From assembly GCF_011682065.1 (NCBI RefSeq), contig NZ_VUYU01000011.1, positions 62,001 to 126,000 on the forward strand: 64,000 nucleotides of DNA, written 5' to 3'. Of this stretch, positions 2,897 to 63,017 are shown piece by piece; the stretch's first letter is position 1; each line of letters opens with the position of its first letter. Under the pieces are notes generated by a model. It was not told where the DNA came from. It made no database searches and saw only the letters and a list, made by a program, of their open reading frames with translations. A program made the translations under genes and the position numbers. The DNA is from Massilia rubra (GTDB lineage: Bacteria > Pseudomonadota > Gammaproteobacteria > Burkholderiales > Burkholderiaceae_D).

Positions 2897-3559
2897 TTAA
2901 GCGTTGACGCTGGCCGGCCGCTGGCGGCGGTGCGCCAGAAAGCCCAGCATGGCCAGGCCGGTCAGGAACATGGCATAGGTTTCCGGTTCCGGGACGGCGC
3001 TGACCAGCTGATCCGAATTGCTGAAGCTGGTGAACGTGCCGGCGGGCGCCATGAATTGTGCCTGCTGGCCGCCATCGCAGCAGCCCTCGAAGCCATAGAT
3101 GGTCAGGGTATGGTTGCCCGCGCCCAGATTGACTGCCGCGTTGAAGTACTGCGATGCATTGTTGTACTGGCCGGCCCACCACATATCATGGCTTTTCACG
3201 TCGAGCGCCACATCGTTGAGGAACAGCGCGCCGCCGAAGCCGAAATCGACGCCTGCGCGGAACTGCCAGAGGCCGGCGTTCGCTTGCGTGACGCCGAAAT
3301 TGATGGTCGACTTCAGCGCAAAGTTACTGCTCCCGCCGAACAGGCTGGCGTGGGTGATGTTGTTGTACGACTCGACGCTGGTCTTGGTGTAGGCCGCGCC
3401 CAGCAGAGAAGCGTTGACGGCGTTCTGGTAGGCGCCGGCATCGGCCAGCGTGCCCGATGGCGTGGCGGAAGCCGATTCGATCGTGATCGTGCTGGCGCAG
3501 GCACTGCCGGCGACGGTCAGGGCAGCGGCGGCCAAAACCCACGAGAGATTCTTTTTCAT
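2897..3559 (-). CDS. PEP-CTERM sorted exported protein with CCDG motif
   Basis: 220 residues. It starts at ATG 3559 with AGGAAA 5-6 bases upstream. The protein has a signal peptide (MKKNLSWVLAAAALTVAGSACA), a beta-rich middle with a conspicuous FEGCCDGG motif, and a C-terminal sorting signal: VPEPETYAMF, a hydrophobic helix, then HRRQR. This is the classic PEP-CTERM tripartite tail recognised by exosortase/EpsH, so the protein is probably processed at the inner membrane and exported or attached to exopolysaccharide. No exosortase gene is present in the window. It converges with the propeller/M23 gene, and a long perfect hairpin lies ~250 bp upstream. Confidence 0.88.
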   Translation of the reverse strand: MKKNLSWVLAAAALTVAGSACASTITIESASATPSGTLADAGAYQNAVNASLLGAAYTKTSVESYNNITHASLFGGSSNFALKSTINFGVTQANAGLWQFRAGVDFGFGGALFLNDVALDVKSHDMWWAGQYNNASQYFNAAVNLGAGNHTLTIYGFEGCCDGGQQAQFMAPAGTFTSFSNSDQLVSAVPEPETYAMFLTGLAMLGFLAHRRQRPASVNA

Positions 3560-3810
3560 ATAGTTTCCTGGACGAGGACCGTGCGCGCAATGGCGGCGCG
3601 GTCGGGATAAAAGAAATTTTCGCTCTGCACGAGCGTCCAAGGCATGCGATGGACGATCAGTCTGGGTGCTGGCGCTGAATCACGGTGCATCGGAGATGTG
3701 TCGGATGCACGAACAGTATCCAAAGAGTAACATGAATTCGCCTCAACCAACTTTCTTCCTCAGCGCTGTCCACCTTTTACAACGTCCATTTCCTACCCAG
3801 CCGTCAAAAC

Positions 3811-31393: not shown

Positions 31394-31660
31394 ATGACCA
31401 ATCGCAGATTTCCTGAAGAACCGACTTACGATCCGAACAAGGTGCTCGACGCCATCATCGAACGCTTGCAGCTCAAGAACGATGCGGCCCTGTCGCGCGC
31501 GCTCGAAGTTGCGCCACCCGTGATCAGTAAAATCCGCCACCGCACCTTGCCGATCGGCGCGACCATCCTGTTGCGCATGCATGAGATCAGCGATTTCAGT
31601 ATCCGGGAATTGCGCGCCATGATGGGTGTGCCGGCGGTGAGCATCAATCTCAACGCCTGA
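31394..31660 (+). CDS. Small HTH-like conserved protein
   Basis: 88 residues. The segment DAALSRALEVAPPVISKIRHRTLPIGATILLRMHEISDFSIRELRAMMGV resembles an XRE/Cro-type helix-turn-helix (LSRALEVAPPVISKIR as the HTH, with a following helix), suggesting a DNA-binding regulator. It is preceded by a long untranslated leader that contains a hairpin. It converges with the AWCTR repeat gene, from which it is separated by a minus-strand terminator-like hairpin. No partner identified. Confidence 0.7.
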   Translation: MTNRRFPEEPTYDPNKVLDAIIERLQLKNDAALSRALEVAPPVISKIRHRTLPIGATILLRMHEISDFSIRELRAMMGVPAVSINLNA

Positions 31661-31862: not shown

Positions 31863-32900
31863 TCAAGCCGACTGCGCCACGCCCTTGCTGATCGATAGCA
31901 GCAGGTCCGATGTGGCGGCGGTTACAACCATGGGCTCGCTCGAGACCCTCGTGCACCAGGCCGATTGCACAGCCGCTGGCATGGCCCTGGTGCACCATGC
32001 CGATTTCACTGCCTCTGCGCTGGTGCGTGTGCACCAGGCCGATTTTGCTTCAGGCGTCGCAGTGCGCGTGCACCAGGCCGATTTTGCTTGCGGCGTTGCA
32101 GTGCGCGTGCACCAGGCCGATTTTGCTTCCGGCGTTGCAGTGCGTGTGCACCAGGCCGATTTGGCGCTGTCGGTGGCAGCACGCGTGCACCACGCGGCTT
32201 TCGCTTGCGGCGTTGCAGTGCGCGTGCACCATGCGGATTTTGCGCTATCGGTGGTAGTACGGGTACACCATGCGGCTTTGGTGTCGGCCGATACGGTGCG
32301 CGTGCACCAAGCCGAGGTAGCGCTGTCGGTGGTAGTGCGGGTGCACCATGCGGCTTTGGCTGCTTCGGCATTGGTCCGGGTGCACCATGCGGCTTTGGCG
32401 CCGGCCGATACCGCCGTTTCACCTTCCGCAGTGCGGGTGCACCATGCCGATTGCGCGCCAGCTGTCTCTACCGGCGCCTCTTCCACGGCACGCGTGCACC
32501 AGGCGGCGGCGCGGGCGCCATATACTTCGCCGAAGGTGCTTTCATACAGGTCGCGCATGCGGTTGCCGCAGTCCTGCAGGTGCTGCGTATCTTCTGCTTC
32601 GCCGCTCATGCCCACATACGGATAGTGATGCAGGAAATAGCCGAACGCGTGCTCGCAATCCTTCGCGTACTTCATCGTGTCCAGAATATGGTAGTGCCAG
32701 AAGATGTCGACTTCGATCATCGGCGCGGTTTCGTCTTCCGGGAATGCCTTCATCAGATACAGGAAACGGCGATATTCCACTTCCACCGCATCCGCTTTTT
32801 CCTGCGACCAGCCTTCGCCGGATTCGGCATGCGTGAGCTTGAATTTGATCGGGTCCAGATCGAGTTCCGAAATTGCTTTGATTGCGTCGTTGGTCATCAT
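31863..32900 (-). CDS. His/Cys-rich N-terminal domain with 14 AWCTR repeats
   Basis: 345 residues; ATG 32900 has AGAGG seven bases upstream (ATG 32897 adjoins). Residues ~1-128 form a domain with EVDIFWHYH (65-71), DCEH (81-84) and FLHHYPY, resembling the GRDP-like domain (glycine-rich domain-containing protein-like). From 131 to 318 the motif [SA]AWCTR occurs 14 times, with Trp at 134, 153, 172, 185 and then every 13 residues to 315. Variable spacers are Thr/Ala/Ser/Lys-rich (TATPEAK, TTDSAK). A hydrophobic tail ends in LLLSISKGVAQSA. No signal peptide. The repeats suggest a multi-core peptide precursor, metal/thiol array or binding scaffold; none is proven and no modifying enzyme is adjacent. 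Confidence 0.85.
   Translation of the reverse strand: MMTNDAIKAISELDLDPIKFKLTHAESGEGWSQEKADAVEVEYRRFLYLMKAFPEDETAPMIEVDIFWHYHILDTMKYAKDCEHAFGYFLHHYPYVGMSGEAEDTQHLQDCGNRMRDLYESTFGEVYGARAAAWCTRAVEEAPVETAGAQSAWCTRTAEGETAVSAGAKAAWCTRTNAEAAKAAWCTRTTTDSATSAWCTRTVSADTKAAWCTRTTTDSAKSAWCTRTATPQAKAAWCTRAATDSAKSAWCTRTATPEAKSAWCTRTATPQAKSAWCTRTATPEAKSAWCTRTSAEAVKSAWCTRAMPAAVQSAWCTRVSSEPMVVTAATSDLLLSISKGVAQSA
31947..32504 (-). repeat. DNA tandem array encoding AWCTR units (39 bp period)
   Basis: The minus-strand core GCCTGGTGCACGCGC (and GCATGGTGCACCCGC-like variants) recurs 14 times; the last 12 units are exactly 39 bp apart, the first two intervals are 57 bp. The core is better conserved than the spacers at both DNA and protein level, which indicates selection on the AWCTR motif rather than recent duplication alone. 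Confidence 0.9.
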
Positions 32901-33189
32901 GATTAAGCCTCTTTTGTAGAGTTGTGATTGGTTTATGTGACTACATTCCCTGTTTGGACTTGCGGGTGTTACCGGTACTGCAAGCTGCCTGTCTCCTTTC
33001 TTTCTTACGGTCAATCAATTGCCCGATTACATTGATTTCCGTTACTGTTTGAGGATGTTGCGCCGGTCCGCTTCCGACTTATTGACTTTGCTCAAGCATT
33101 ACTCGGGGATATTCCTAGTGCACTGCGGATGCACTGACTGTGCCGCAAGCCATCGAGGAGGAATCTGTTTAGGACAATGCCCGTCGTCA

Positions 33190-35037
33190 TCAGACAAACG
33201 CTGCATGCGCTTCATTTTTGCTGGACGTACCGCTGGCGTGGCCACGCGCGGGCTCATTGTGCAAAGGGACGCTCACGCAGACCGTGGTCCCTTCGCCGCT
33301 ATCGCTGGTGATGGAAAACGAGCCGCCGAGGATGCTGATGCGTTCCTCGATGCCGACCAGGCCGAAGGAGCCGACCTTGGCCCGTTCGCCCGCCTGCAAA
33401 CCGATGCCGTTGTCGCTGACGGTCATCGACAGGCGGTTGCCGCCCAGCTTGAGTTCGACCCTGACCCGGCTGGCCTGCGCATGGCGCACGATGTTGCTCA
33501 GCGATTCTTGCAGGATGCGGAAAAAAGCCGTGGCCGCATGGTCGCTGAGCGCCACTTCCTTCGGCTCGTCGATCAGTTCGCAGGCAATGCCGGTGCGGCG
33601 CTTGAATTCGGCGATCTGCCACTCGACCGCCGCCGACAGCCCCAGGTCGAGCACGTTCGGACGCAGGTCGTTGATGATCTGGCGCACGCTCTTGATGGTG
33701 GCGTCGATCTGCTGCAAGGTGGAGCGCGCGCGCGCGTGCAGGCGCGGATGGCGCTCGCGCGTGCGCGAACTGAGCATGTCCGCCTCGATGCGCAGCGCCA
33801 GCAGGTTCTGGCCGAGGTCGTCGTGGATTTCGCGCGCGATGCGCTTGCGCTCGCCTTCCTTGATCTGGTCGGCGTGGGCCGCCAGGCGGCGCAGGTTCTG
33901 GTGCGACAGTTGCAGCTTGGCCTGGCTGTCGCGCAGTTCGCGCGTCATGCCCTTGGCCATCTTGATGGCGCGCCGTCGTGACGAGGTCAGCGCATGGAAC
34001 AGGGCGTACAACAGCATCGAGCTGACCGAGCCGGCCATCATCGCCAGCCACGGCGCGAATTCCTCGAAGCCCGTGTACAGCTCGGTGGCGGCGACGCTGA
34101 AGGTGGCGTCCCACTGGCGGCCGTTGAAGTCGATCGGCAAGGTCGCGTAGAAGCGTTCCGGCGCCAGCGCGGCGGGCAGGGATGTTTCGTCGTTTCCGCC
34201 GCTGTCGAACAACACGCGCCCGCGCAGCATGTCCGGGCCGAGGGCGTTATCGACCAGCATCATGCGCACATTCTTGATCGGCACTTCGTCGATCACGCCC
34301 TGCACCAGCTTCTGCACGCTGAAAGCGATTCCGACCGTGCCCAGATAAGCGGCGCGCCGCTGCGCCACGGTCGCGGTCGGCGCATGCGGCCGGTAGACCG
34401 GCAGGCGCATGCCGAGCCCGGTGCGGCCCGGTCCCGAAATGAAGGAAATCGGCAAGCCCGAGGTGAACAGCTTGCCGGTGTCGCGCAGCTCGCCGAGCGT
34501 GTCGACGATCAGCGGATTGGTGAACAGGTCGTAGCCGAGCGTGGCGGCCCAGCGTACTTCCGGCTCCACGAAGGTGACCACCGTGTAGGAAGGACGGCGC
34601 CCGGGTGGCTTGATGGTGAACTCCTCCGCCTCGCCGGCGCCGTCGGCCGCGCGTTCCTTGCGCACGCGCTGCAGGAAGGCATCGCGGTCGGCGTCCTGCA
34701 GCATCTGGGCGAAATTGATGTTTTCGATGGCCGGGAAATTACGCGCCAGTCCCAGTCCGTTGACGTAGCCGTGGAACTGGCGGCGCGTGAGCGGCTCGCT
34801 GATCTGGAATACGCTGACCGTGCCGCGCAACACGTCGGTATACGACTTGATGCGGGCGTTGATGGTGTTGCGGGCATTTTGCGCCAGGCCGGCAAAACGG
34901 GCGCGCGAATCGGTTTGAATAGAATTGGCGGTGGCAAGGTAAAGCACCAAACCCACCGCCAGCGAGAAGGGCAAGCCGACCCAAAGGGCGGGACGAGCCA
35001 TCGAAAATGTTTTTATAGTTGTCTTCAGAGTAAGCAT
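33190..35037 (-). CDS. CHASE-domain sensor histidine kinase (NarL-type partner expected)
   Basis: About 615 residues from ATG 35037; upstream in-frame starts at 35049, 35079 and GTG 35091 are possible. Membrane helix (LWVGLPFSLAVGLVLYLATA), a periplasmic CHASE sensor (~50-300; ENINFAQMLQDADRDAFLQRVR, WAATLGYDLFTNP), second helix (WLAMMAGSVSSMLLYALF), then a HisKA_3 dimerisation domain with the phospho-acceptor in REIHDDLGQNLLALR and an HATPase_c (SDNGIGL, FGLVGIEERI). Such kinases normally pair with a NarL/FixJ regulator; none is next to it. Ligand unknown. The 32901-33189 gap downstream is the upstream region of the AWCTR gene. Confidence 0.88.
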   Translation of the reverse strand: MLTLKTTIKTFSMARPALWVGLPFSLAVGLVLYLATANSIQTDSRARFAGLAQNARNTINARIKSYTDVLRGTVSVFQISEPLTRRQFHGYVNGLGLARNFPAIENINFAQMLQDADRDAFLQRVRKERAADGAGEAEEFTIKPPGRRPSYTVVTFVEPEVRWAATLGYDLFTNPLIVDTLGELRDTGKLFTSGLPISFISGPGRTGLGMRLPVYRPHAPTATVAQRRAAYLGTVGIAFSVQKLVQGVIDEVPIKNVRMMLVDNALGPDMLRGRVLFDSGGNDETSLPAALAPERFYATLPIDFNGRQWDATFSVAATELYTGFEEFAPWLAMMAGSVSSMLLYALFHALTSSRRRAIKMAKGMTRELRDSQAKLQLSHQNLRRLAAHADQIKEGERKRIAREIHDDLGQNLLALRIEADMLSSRTRERHPRLHARARSTLQQIDATIKSVRQIINDLRPNVLDLGLSAAVEWQIAEFKRRTGIACELIDEPKEVALSDHAATAFFRILQESLSNIVRHAQASRVRVELKLGGNRLSMTVSDNGIGLQAGERAKVGSFGLVGIEERISILGGSFSITSDSGEGTTVCVSVPLHNEPARGHASGTSSKNEAHAAFV

Positions 35038-35167
35038 GGTGCGTTGCATTCCTTTCGGTAGCCCCAAATGGCGATGCATTGTTTGATCCACATTAACCGG
35101 AAGTTAGTTGTCATAATACCTATTGATCCTGCTAGGTATGGAGATCGGAAAAGTCTGAATATAGAAA

Positions 35168-61310: not shown

Positions 61311-63017
61311 ATGAAAACCTTCATTCCAGGCAAAGACGCCGCCCTCGAATCCACCATCGACACCATGCAGGCCAAGCTGGCCGCGCGCGGTTTTAATCTG
61401 AACGAGTCGTCGTTGCTGCATGAGGTCGACGGCATCTGGTCGACCCATATGAAGGATAACGATTGTCCGATGCTGTTTTCGAACGGTAAGGGCGCGACCG
61501 AGCTGGCCGCGCGCGCCAGTGCCTACGGTGAATTCTTCGAACGCCTCGGCACCCACTATTTCTGGACCCACTTTCACCTCGGCGAAACACGTGCCAATCG
61601 TCCTTTCGTGCATTATCCGCAGGAGCGCTGGTTCAAGCCGGGGCCGGACGGCGCCTGGCCGGCCGAGATGCTTAATCCGGAACTGCACGCCTTTTATAAT
61701 CCCGACAGCGAAATCGATGCCGAGGTGCTGGTCGACTTGAACTCGGGTAACGTCGAACGCGGTATCTGCGCGCTGCCATACAAGCGCTTGCGTGACGATA
61801 GCGAAACTTTTATTCCGGTTAATATCATCGGCAACCTGTATGTCAGCAACGGCATGGCCGCTGGCAATACGATGATGGAAGCGCGCAGCCAGGCGTTGTC
61901 CGAAATTTTCGAGCGCCAGATCAAGTACCGCATCATCAGCGAAGGCTTGTGCCTGCCGGAAGTGCCGGACGAGGTGTTGGCGCGCTTTCCGAACATCAAG
62001 GCCGGCATCGATGGCTTGCGCCGCGCCGGTTTCGGCATCCTGGTCAAGGATGCTTCGCTCGGCGGCAAGTATCCGGTGATGAATGTGACCCTGGTGCATC
62101 CGAAAGACCAGGGCGTGTTCTCCAGCTACGGCGCGCACCCGCGCTTCGAGATCGCGCTGGAACGCGCCATGACCGAATTGCTGCAGGGCCGCGCGCTCGA
62201 TTCGCTGGAAGGCTTCCCGGAACCCGGTTTCGACATGAGCGAGATCAACGCCGTGGCTAACCTGGAAATCCATTTCGTCGATTCGAGCGGTGTGATCAGC
62301 TGGAATTTCATGGGCGACACGCCGGATTACCCGTTTGTCGACTGGAACTTCAGCACCACCACGGAAGAAGATTACAACTGGCTGGTCGATTGCATCCATG
62401 GCGAAGGCAAGGATATCTACGTGGCCGATTTCAGCGAGCAGGGCGCGTACAGCTGCCGCATCCTGGTGCCGGGCTTCTCCGAAATTTATCCGGTGGAAGA
62501 CCTGGAGTGGGAAAACAACAGTATCGGCAACCTGATCCGTCCAAAGCTGGTGCGCCTCGATACCCTGAGCGCGGAAGAATGCGCAGCCTTGCTGGAAGAC
62601 TTGCAGACCATGAACGTGAACGACGAGCGTCCGCTGTGGGAAATCCTGGGCCTGGCCATTCCGCTCGGCACGCCGTGGAAGCAGTTGCGCATCGGCGAAC
62701 TGAAAACGCTGCTGGCGCTGGCGGTGGGCGATCAGGACGGCATCCTCGAAGGTTGCGACTGGATCCACCACTTCAAGGACCTGGCCCCGGCGCGCCGCCT
62801 CGTGTACCGCTGCATCGAGAGCATGCTCAACGTGGAAGACGTGGATAACTACCGCCGTTCGATGGTCTTGCTGTACGGCGAAGACACCGTGCGCCAGGCC
62901 GCGGCCTTGCTCGACCGTAGCGAGCGTTTCTTCGGGCTGGACACGCTCGGCGCCGACATGCAGGGCAGCGCCATGCACCAGACTTTGCTGGCCGCCTACG
63001 ACAAGCTGTTCGTGTAA
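61311..63017 (+). CDS. ycaO: YcaO-family protein, ribosomal protein S12 methylthiolation-associated type
   Basis: 568 residues; GAGA upstream of ATG 61311. MKTFIPGKDAALESTIDTMQAKLAARGFNLNESSLLHEVDGIWSTHMKDNDCPMLFSNGKGATELAARASAYGEFFERLGTHYFW is the ATP-binding YcaO start, matching E. coli YcaO rather than azole-forming cyclodehydratases (standalone, no E1-like partner, C-terminus DKLFV). Other ATP-site segments are NGMAAGNTMMEARSQALSEIFERQIKY and RFEIALERAMTELLQGRALDS. E. coli YcaO assists RimO-linked methylthiolation of S12. A strong terminator follows at once. Confidence 0.9.
   Translation: MKTFIPGKDAALESTIDTMQAKLAARGFNLNESSLLHEVDGIWSTHMKDNDCPMLFSNGKGATELAARASAYGEFFERLGTHYFWTHFHLGETRANRPFVHYPQERWFKPGPDGAWPAEMLNPELHAFYNPDSEIDAEVLVDLNSGNVERGICALPYKRLRDDSETFIPVNIIGNLYVSNGMAAGNTMMEARSQALSEIFERQIKYRIISEGLCLPEVPDEVLARFPNIKAGIDGLRRAGFGILVKDASLGGKYPVMNVTLVHPKDQGVFSSYGAHPRFEIALERAMTELLQGRALDSLEGFPEPGFDMSEINAVANLEIHFVDSSGVISWNFMGDTPDYPFVDWNFSTTTEEDYNWLVDCIHGEGKDIYVADFSEQGAYSCRILVPGFSEIYPVEDLEWENNSIGNLIRPKLVRLDTLSAEECAALLEDLQTMNVNDERPLWEILGLAIPLGTPWKQLRIGELKTLLALAVGDQDGILEGCDWIHHFKDLAPARRLVYRCIESMLNVEDVDNYRRSMVLLYGEDTVRQAAALLDRSERFFGLDTLGADMQGSAMHQTLLAAYDKLFV

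Follow-up and report, generated by a model that had tools for sequence, protein, structure and literature searches.

A GRDP-like domain followed by repeated AWCTR units in Massilia rubra: a possible fused multicore peptide precursor linked to a CHASE sensor

A gene in the genome of Massilia rubra encodes a GRDP-like domain followed by 14 AWCTR units, and homologues repeat short cores of the same general format behind the same domain, almost always beside a gene for a CHASE sensor. On sequence grounds, we give a little less than an even chance to the reading that this array gene encodes a fused multicore peptide precursor, in which the GRDP-like domain would handle the cores and to which the CHASE sensor would be linked. 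GRDP-like (formerly DUF1399) domains are widespread, and no stated biochemical function was found for them; the selected units, together with relatives that carry a single core or look split, make the function testable. The DNA analyzed here (the window) is a stretch of 64,000 nucleotides (assembly GCF_011682065.1, contig NZ_VUYU01000011.1, positions 62,001 to 126,000).

The array protein and its homologues

The array gene occupies positions 31863 to 32900 on the minus strand and has 345 codons, from an ATG at 32900 to a stop at 31863 to 31865. On the same strand, residues 1 to 130 (32511 to 32900) form the GRDP-like domain, supported by Pfam PF07173, an alignment of 37 sequences, and an all-helical model; residues 133 to 318 (31947 to 32504, coordinates derived from residue numbers) carry the 14 AWCTR units; and residues 319 to 345 (31866 to 31946) form a C-terminal tail without the RPx[LF] motif of many relatives. 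The first-pass annotation had placed the Trp residues of 14 units at 134, 153, 172, and 185 and from there at intervals of 13 residues up to 315, which we confirmed; 14 Cys residues lie beyond residue 125. Its statement that Trp-Cys-Thr-Arg does not vary holds for the protein and not for the DNA, in which codons differ among the 14 units (Ala GCC, GCA, GCT, or GCG; Cys TGC or TGT; Thr ACG, ACC, or ACA; Arg CGC, CGT, AGG, or CGG). Likewise, the Lys that it put before [SA]A at each unit was counted in 10 of the 14 units and is lacking in the remainder. Reading the protein by eye revealed neither an evident hydrophobic N terminus or signal peptide nor dibasic pairs at the units. Across the 7.57-Mb genome, a degenerate AWCTR codon pattern had 38 matches, 14 in the array gene and 24 scattered, and the reversed pattern, used as a control, had 12.

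A whole-protein search matched 70 of 195 genomes of the family at an E value of ≤0.001, 62 of them below 1e-15 and 8 weakly. When GTDB contigs were scanned with the domain alignment, 296 encoding stretches were recovered, and 78 loci from these were kept, mainly of Massilia, Janthinobacterium, Duganella, Pseudoduganella, Rugamonas, and Telluria. With other loci chosen by place, these made 127 loci yielding 144 distinct proteins with an FWHxH motif, and leaving out 5 (contig edges or ambiguous bases) gave 139 complete homologues, in a sample that is mostly Oxalobacteraceae and whose genes were called by a simple script. One contig of a metagenome-assembled genome labeled Streptosporangiaceae carries a typical Oxalobacteraceae-type array locus, and its label is probably a binning error. 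Searches of NCBIfam, PHROGs, and PDB sequences gave no match, and no published account of GRDP-array proteins was found in literature searches on the core motifs, the domain, RiPP, and CHASE plus Massilia.

At least three units of the form A-[Y/F/W/H]-[S/C]-small are present in 136 of the 139 complete homologues. By array weight, the first core residue is A in 96%; the aromatic position is Y in 51%, F in 28%, W in 19%, and H in 2% (His arrays, AHSG, occur in two genomes); the third residue is S (57%) or C (43%); and the fourth is G in 51%, A in 29%, S in 9%, and T in 5%. Within arrays, C or S follows 1,309 of 1,374 W, Y, and F residues and 22 of 81 His residues, most of which sit in spacers, and 568 of 569 Cys residues come directly after W, Y, F, or H. 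The spacers are rich in Ala, Thr, Val, Pro, Gln, and Lys and almost without aromatics. Unit number ranges from 1 to 19 per protein (median, 9) and spacing from 3 to 36. A single aromatic is used throughout 104 of 131 arrays and a single Cys/Ser choice throughout 121; Ser is used by 70 of the 131, and many arrays have no Cys at all. The RPx[LF] motif is present in the last 25 residues of 69 of 76 Ser-type proteins versus 7 of 60 Cys-type proteins. An RP[SR][LFI]-like motif, possibly a recognition element, lies near the C terminus of array proteins, of two tail-bearing relatives (L140 and L141), and of a Stanieria peptide (L198, positions 3446 to 3577).

When adjacent units were compared over all arrays, pN/pS was 0.055, 0.03, and 0.021 at positions -1, 0, and +1, which the unit-finding motif fixes and where it therefore conditions the ratio (at position 0, both the ratio and the pS of 1.19 are unreliable because synonymous sites are few, with none for Trp). 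The ratio was 0.12, 0.31, and 0.19 at positions +2, +3, and +4, which are free of the motif, and 0.5 to 0.8 in the spacers; pS was 0.41 to 0.56 at -1, +1, and +2. The cores are under strong purifying selection, and the spacers change freely. Units do duplicate, since in 40% of 1,238 units the core DNA exactly matches that of another unit of the same array; uniformity within an array is therefore due in part to turnover and in part to selection.

On a tree of 131 domains, of which 61 of 128 inner branches are open, the aromatic changed at least 34 times (mean with shuffled labels, 52.7), Tyr/non-Tyr 26 times, and Ser/Cys 5 times (shuffled mean, 44.0). The aromatic follows the domain tree in part. 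In 45 pairs, the two domains are at least 97% identical; the aromatic differs in 20% of these pairs, and Ser/Cys and the next residue differ in none. Several of the pairs are tandem paralogues from a single locus, and conversion may have made their domains alike. For example, tandem paralogues of Telluria antibiotica carry 17 AYCA and 18 AFCA units, respectively. Arrays of Y, F, and W thus occur behind the same type of domain, and specificity of the domain for the aromatic was rejected on the basis of the near-identical pairs. Tandem paralogues showed no tendency to choose different aromatics (23 of 35 pairs, with 21.8 expected; P = 0.40). Close kinase sensors mostly share the array aromatic, and such kinases come from close species.

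The GRDP-like domain and its distant relatives

The GRDP-like assignment made in the first-pass annotation is upheld by a PF07173 match of 24.3 bits (cutoff, 22.7), and three array homologues scanned scored 24.0, above the cutoff, and 22.5 and 20.5, slightly below it. The same Pfam scan of the window protein otherwise gave only a subthreshold Albumin_I_a match, with no BURP domain found. Invariant residues in the alignment of 37 sequences include W68, H69, H71, D74, T75, Y78, D81, C82, H91, and H92. In 15 relatives, some with and some without arrays and one of them cyanobacterial, no change was seen in WHxH, in the D-T-Y-D series, or in the second His of HH, and C82 is kept in at least 90%. 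These residues may form a metal site; because relatives lacking arrays retain it too, such a site need not have the array as its target. The AlphaFold2 model of the domain is all helical with a mean pLDDT of 92. No PDB structure matched the domain or the whole protein at an E value of ≤0.001, although a known fold may still exist, and the best VIA-align Z score against known folds was 2.7.

The likeness to the plant proteins AtGRDP1 and AtGRDP2 consists of the N-terminal domain, which passes the curated cutoff in the window protein. Both plant proteins have a glycine-rich region besides the domain, and AtGRDP2 is termed a protein of unknown function (PMC4299439, in the excerpt available). The plant GRDP proteins, which have a putative RNA motif and have been studied in development and stress, are without a core array, unlike the window protein.

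We compared 48 distant GRDP ORFs, one of them clearly spurious and a few truncated. Their C-terminal parts contain other Cys residues (14 ORFs), are Gly/Cys rich (12), are missing (12), contain no Cys (5), or bear an A-Phi-C core (5), the last group including single cores at the very C terminus (PAMCIS and SAICSR). One member of this last group carries an array of AMCGG units, with Met in the aromatic's place. Absence of the repeats from homologues that keep the domain had been named beforehand as evidence against the proposal, and the outcome is split: among close homologues the array persists (136 of 139), and most distant ones lack it (1 array among 48 ORFs).

In Stanieria, a tail-less GRDP gene is followed by an annotated 43-residue ORF with AAFCF, AGFCF, and an RPSI stretch and then by a methyltransferase gene, apparently a split form of domain and core peptide; the A-Phi-C filter of the small-ORF scan also passed spurious ORFs. 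In Halomonas, a 42-residue ORF ending in GGGHCQGGGSW, a GRDP gene, and a MatE-like gene (20.2 bits, under the cutoff of 24.9) lie beside genes for AHL synthesis. A TauD/TfdA dioxygenase gene is found downstream of the GRDP gene in Azospirillum, after a methyltransferase gene, and in one further genome; of two other GRDP loci, one has an MFS protein and a methyltransferase, and the other has an ABC transporter. Some standalone GRDP loci resemble small biosynthetic clusters, as judged from a few dozen read by eye with no matched control. A second GRDP branch (L149, L150, L152, L203 to L207, L235, L237, and L238) has a C-terminal Gly/Cys tail, e.g., GCGGCGG, often with a hydrophobic stretch, seen by eye, between domain and tail. 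A 595-kb uncultured phage record (L214, positions 2995 to 3600) encodes a GRDP-like protein with a His/Cys/Gly-rich tail.

The CHASE sensor partner and the upstream dyad

The array gene adjoins a gene for a sensor histidine kinase with CHASE, HisKA_3, and HATPase_c domains (33190 to 35091, minus strand; Pfam). The earlier survey of neighbors overlooked this conserved kinase; its report that no maturase or protease gene lies beside the array gene agrees with our neighbor clustering and reading by eye. Of the 106 loci giving a distinct protein, 104 have a kinase match no more than 0.5 kb from the array gene (upstream on the same strand in 93, divergent in 7, and downstream in 4); the other two are a locus at a contig edge (L123) and a second copy of the gene (L044). 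Plasmids of Cupriavidus and Variovorax have AYCAR- or AWCSL-type units behind a CHASE-GGDEF-EAL protein. Because CHASE is kept when the output is GGDEF-EAL, the constant element is the CHASE sensor. The kinase occurs without the array gene in three genomes of one genus (L166 to L168), and a fourth kinase is located at the edge of its contig.

No third gene common to all rearranged array loci was found by clustering or by eye, and no response regulator adjoining the kinase was seen in nine rearranged or odd loci read by eye. MNIO enzymes are encoded in 19 of 22 array-bearing genomes and YcaO in 21 of 22; as array-bearing genomes without each exist, both were rejected as obligatory maturases. 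A YcaO-domain match lies at 61482 to 62480, about 29 kb from the array gene in the window, and a second genome (G003) has one about 17 kb from its array gene. Downstream of the array gene, at 31394 to 31660, a small conserved gene of 88 amino acids with no Pfam match, present in 24 of 40 loci, resembles a helix-turn-helix protein by eye.

FNR-type regulators bind the consensus TTGAT-N4-ATCAA. A dyad of this type, TTGAGCAAAGTCAA, with 8 of 10 consensus bases, lies between the array gene and the kinase (33082 to 33095, minus strand). TTGA-N6-TCAA occurs upstream of 78 of 122 nonredundant array genes, and the perfect box occurs upstream of 32 of the 122. For comparison, the dyad was present in 22 of 366 stretches of 300 bp placed at random in these loci, where overlap with the true site can occur, in 1 of 288 upstream regions of 13 other neighboring gene groups, and in 7 of 38 regions upstream of the kinase itself; shuffled upstream regions gave no perfect box in 1,220. 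The source genome encodes an FNR-like protein with a CxxCx5C stretch. No such dyad precedes the Cupriavidus and Variovorax genes or those standalone genes that were tested, and a literature search on the FNR box together with Herbaspirillum found no paper. Next to the dyad, about 20 bp upstream, lies a candidate second palindrome, CTAGGAATATCCCCGAG, or palindrome-like element, TAGGAATATCC (33102 to 33118, minus strand), which may be a response-regulator site, and a TAGGAA-like motif is found 20 to 24 bp upstream of the dyad in 11 loci.

Possible functions of the array

The first-pass annotation had offered three interpretations, namely, a precursor with many cores cut at Arg or Lys, a Cys/Trp array for metal or redox chemistry, and a protein-binding scaffold; of these, the multicore precursor is the best-supported reading. 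Handling of the peptide would fall to the conserved GRDP-like domain, acting as a structured leader or, as its invariant His/Cys/Asp cluster could indicate, as a metalloenzyme that modifies the peptide in cis, and the repeats of Ala, an aromatic, Cys or Ser, and a small residue would be the cores. Many identical cores would be made at once, probably at low oxygen as the FNR-type box suggests, modified at the aromatic and/or at Cys/Ser, and then released or displayed, and the linked CHASE sensor would respond to the product or to the same condition. The architecture, per-core selection, within-array uniformity, CHASE linkage, FNR-type dyads, and single-core, multicore, and apparently split relatives are all read from sequence; from there, we infer a metal site, modification, cleavage, export, and sensing.

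Several observations argue for the precursor reading. The cores are selected while the spacers are free, with the core format kept in 136 of 139 homologues; one array carries one core type; the same domain occurs with other core carriers (a single core, the AMCGG array, and the Stanieria peptide); some GRDP loci resemble biosynthetic clusters; the CHASE sensor adjoins 104 of 106 loci; and fused burpitides give a precedent (PMC11253845, as excerpted). Counted against it, the lack of a third common gene means that no maturase, protease, or exporter can be assigned to the unit, and neither a cleavage signature nor a signal peptide was seen. Weighted by array, R occupies position +3 in 27%; in 19 of 131 arrays, K and R are missing from over half of the intercore segments; and no conserved cleavage signature flanking the core was found across the family arrays. 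Because K and R are not conserved at fixed positions, the trypsin-like release proposed earlier was rejected as a family rule and as a conserved feature of the unit; it could apply in the 112 of 131 arrays where half or more of the intercore segments contain K or R.

Known precursors resemble the array protein in part. In proteusins, the leader is a folded enzyme-like domain and the modification enzymes are normally clustered. The GRDP domain is a different one, and the array loci share no modification gene; the accessible part of PMC10858898 describes proteusin-type RiPP precursors as having a large nonstandard leader before a C-terminal core. Fused burpitides hold repeated short aromatic cores and a metal-dependent domain in one polypeptide and occur in fused and split forms, according to the excerpt of PMC11253845. 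They are, however, plant products with a BURP domain for which copper-dependent cross-linking has been shown, whereas the GRDP array is bacterial, has another domain and C-terminal cores, and is read from sequence. Kex2-processed repeat proteins such as the ustiloxin precursor and yeast alpha-factor contain many similar short cores that are highly diverse between species (PMC7329392, in part), but these are fungal and have a signal peptide and Kex2 sites, neither of which is evident in the GRDP-array protein.

A bolder version would make this a new bacterial peptide system in which a GRDP-like metalloenzyme modifies either its own cores (fused) or a small peptide distinct from it (split), the products exit the cell at low oxygen, and they are read by a CHASE receptor coupled to a kinase or to cyclic-di-GMP enzymes; we regard this as rather unlikely. 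If a GRDP-like metalloenzyme does modify the cores, this would be the first biochemical function for GRDP-like/DUF1399, a domain shared with plants. Modified units would constitute a new type of precursor in soil bacteria (Massilia, Janthinobacterium, and Duganella), one missed by mining for adjacent maturases. The linkage would also suggest a ligand for the CHASE sensor class, whose ligands are, to our knowledge, mostly unknown.

The strongest rival to the precursor reading is a multivalent short-motif scaffold, which we consider unlikely on balance but a serious contender. Here the tail would be disordered, each unit would be a short linear motif (sticker) binding a partner or itself, copy number would set avidity, and the CHASE kinase would signal through the assembly. 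Such a scaffold needs no maturase, and it accords with spacers that are nearly free of aromatics, with the use of different aromatics by different arrays, and with irregular copy number (1 to 19) and spacing (3 to 36). In FG-type and other sticker-and-spacer repeat proteins, short aromatic motifs likewise lie in aromatic-poor spacer; the GRDP array adds exact unit uniformity and linkage to a bacterial sensor. This uniformity is what tells against the scaffold suggested in the first-pass annotation, as a generic sticker should drift among W, Y, and F, yet 104 of 131 arrays keep one of them, in part because of duplication. The 5 Ser/Cys changes on the domain tree, versus 26 for Tyr/non-Tyr, also count against it, and single-core and split-looking relatives do not fit avidity.

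Quite improbable, in our judgment, is an ordered beta array or amyloid-like stack with one strand per unit and like residues in register. It would explain uniformity inside an array together with freedom between arrays, and the AlphaFold2 model has strands at 12 of the 14 units (residues 171 to 319), but at low confidence (block pLDDT, about 35 to 66). We discount these strands because the program invents beta-solenoids for near-perfect repeats (PMC11795689, in excerpt); moreover, no PDB match was found at an E value of ≤0.001, and spacing is irregular over the family.

We hold a metal-binding or redox array of Cys and aromatics to be very improbable. The nearly invariable placement of array Cys after an aromatic (568 of 569) speaks for it, as do the distant GRDP ORFs with other tail Cys residues (14 of 48) or Gly/Cys-rich tails (12). 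However, 70 of 131 homologous arrays use Ser, many of them Cys free, with the format otherwise the same. The Ser-type arrays thus rule out the general metal or redox role put forward for the Cys/Trp array, a role that at most Cys-type arrays could retain. With Ser in place of Cys in those 70 arrays, the family also does not have the conserved Cys array expected of a metallothionein-like protein.

Finally, neutral tandem-repeat expansion, in which the repeats would have no function, deserves next to no credence: units do duplicate, as the 40% with DNA-identical cores indicate, but core pN/pS is 0.02 to 0.12 with a pS of about 0.4 to 0.6 (positions -1, 0, and +1 being conditioned by the motif), and the core is kept across genera.
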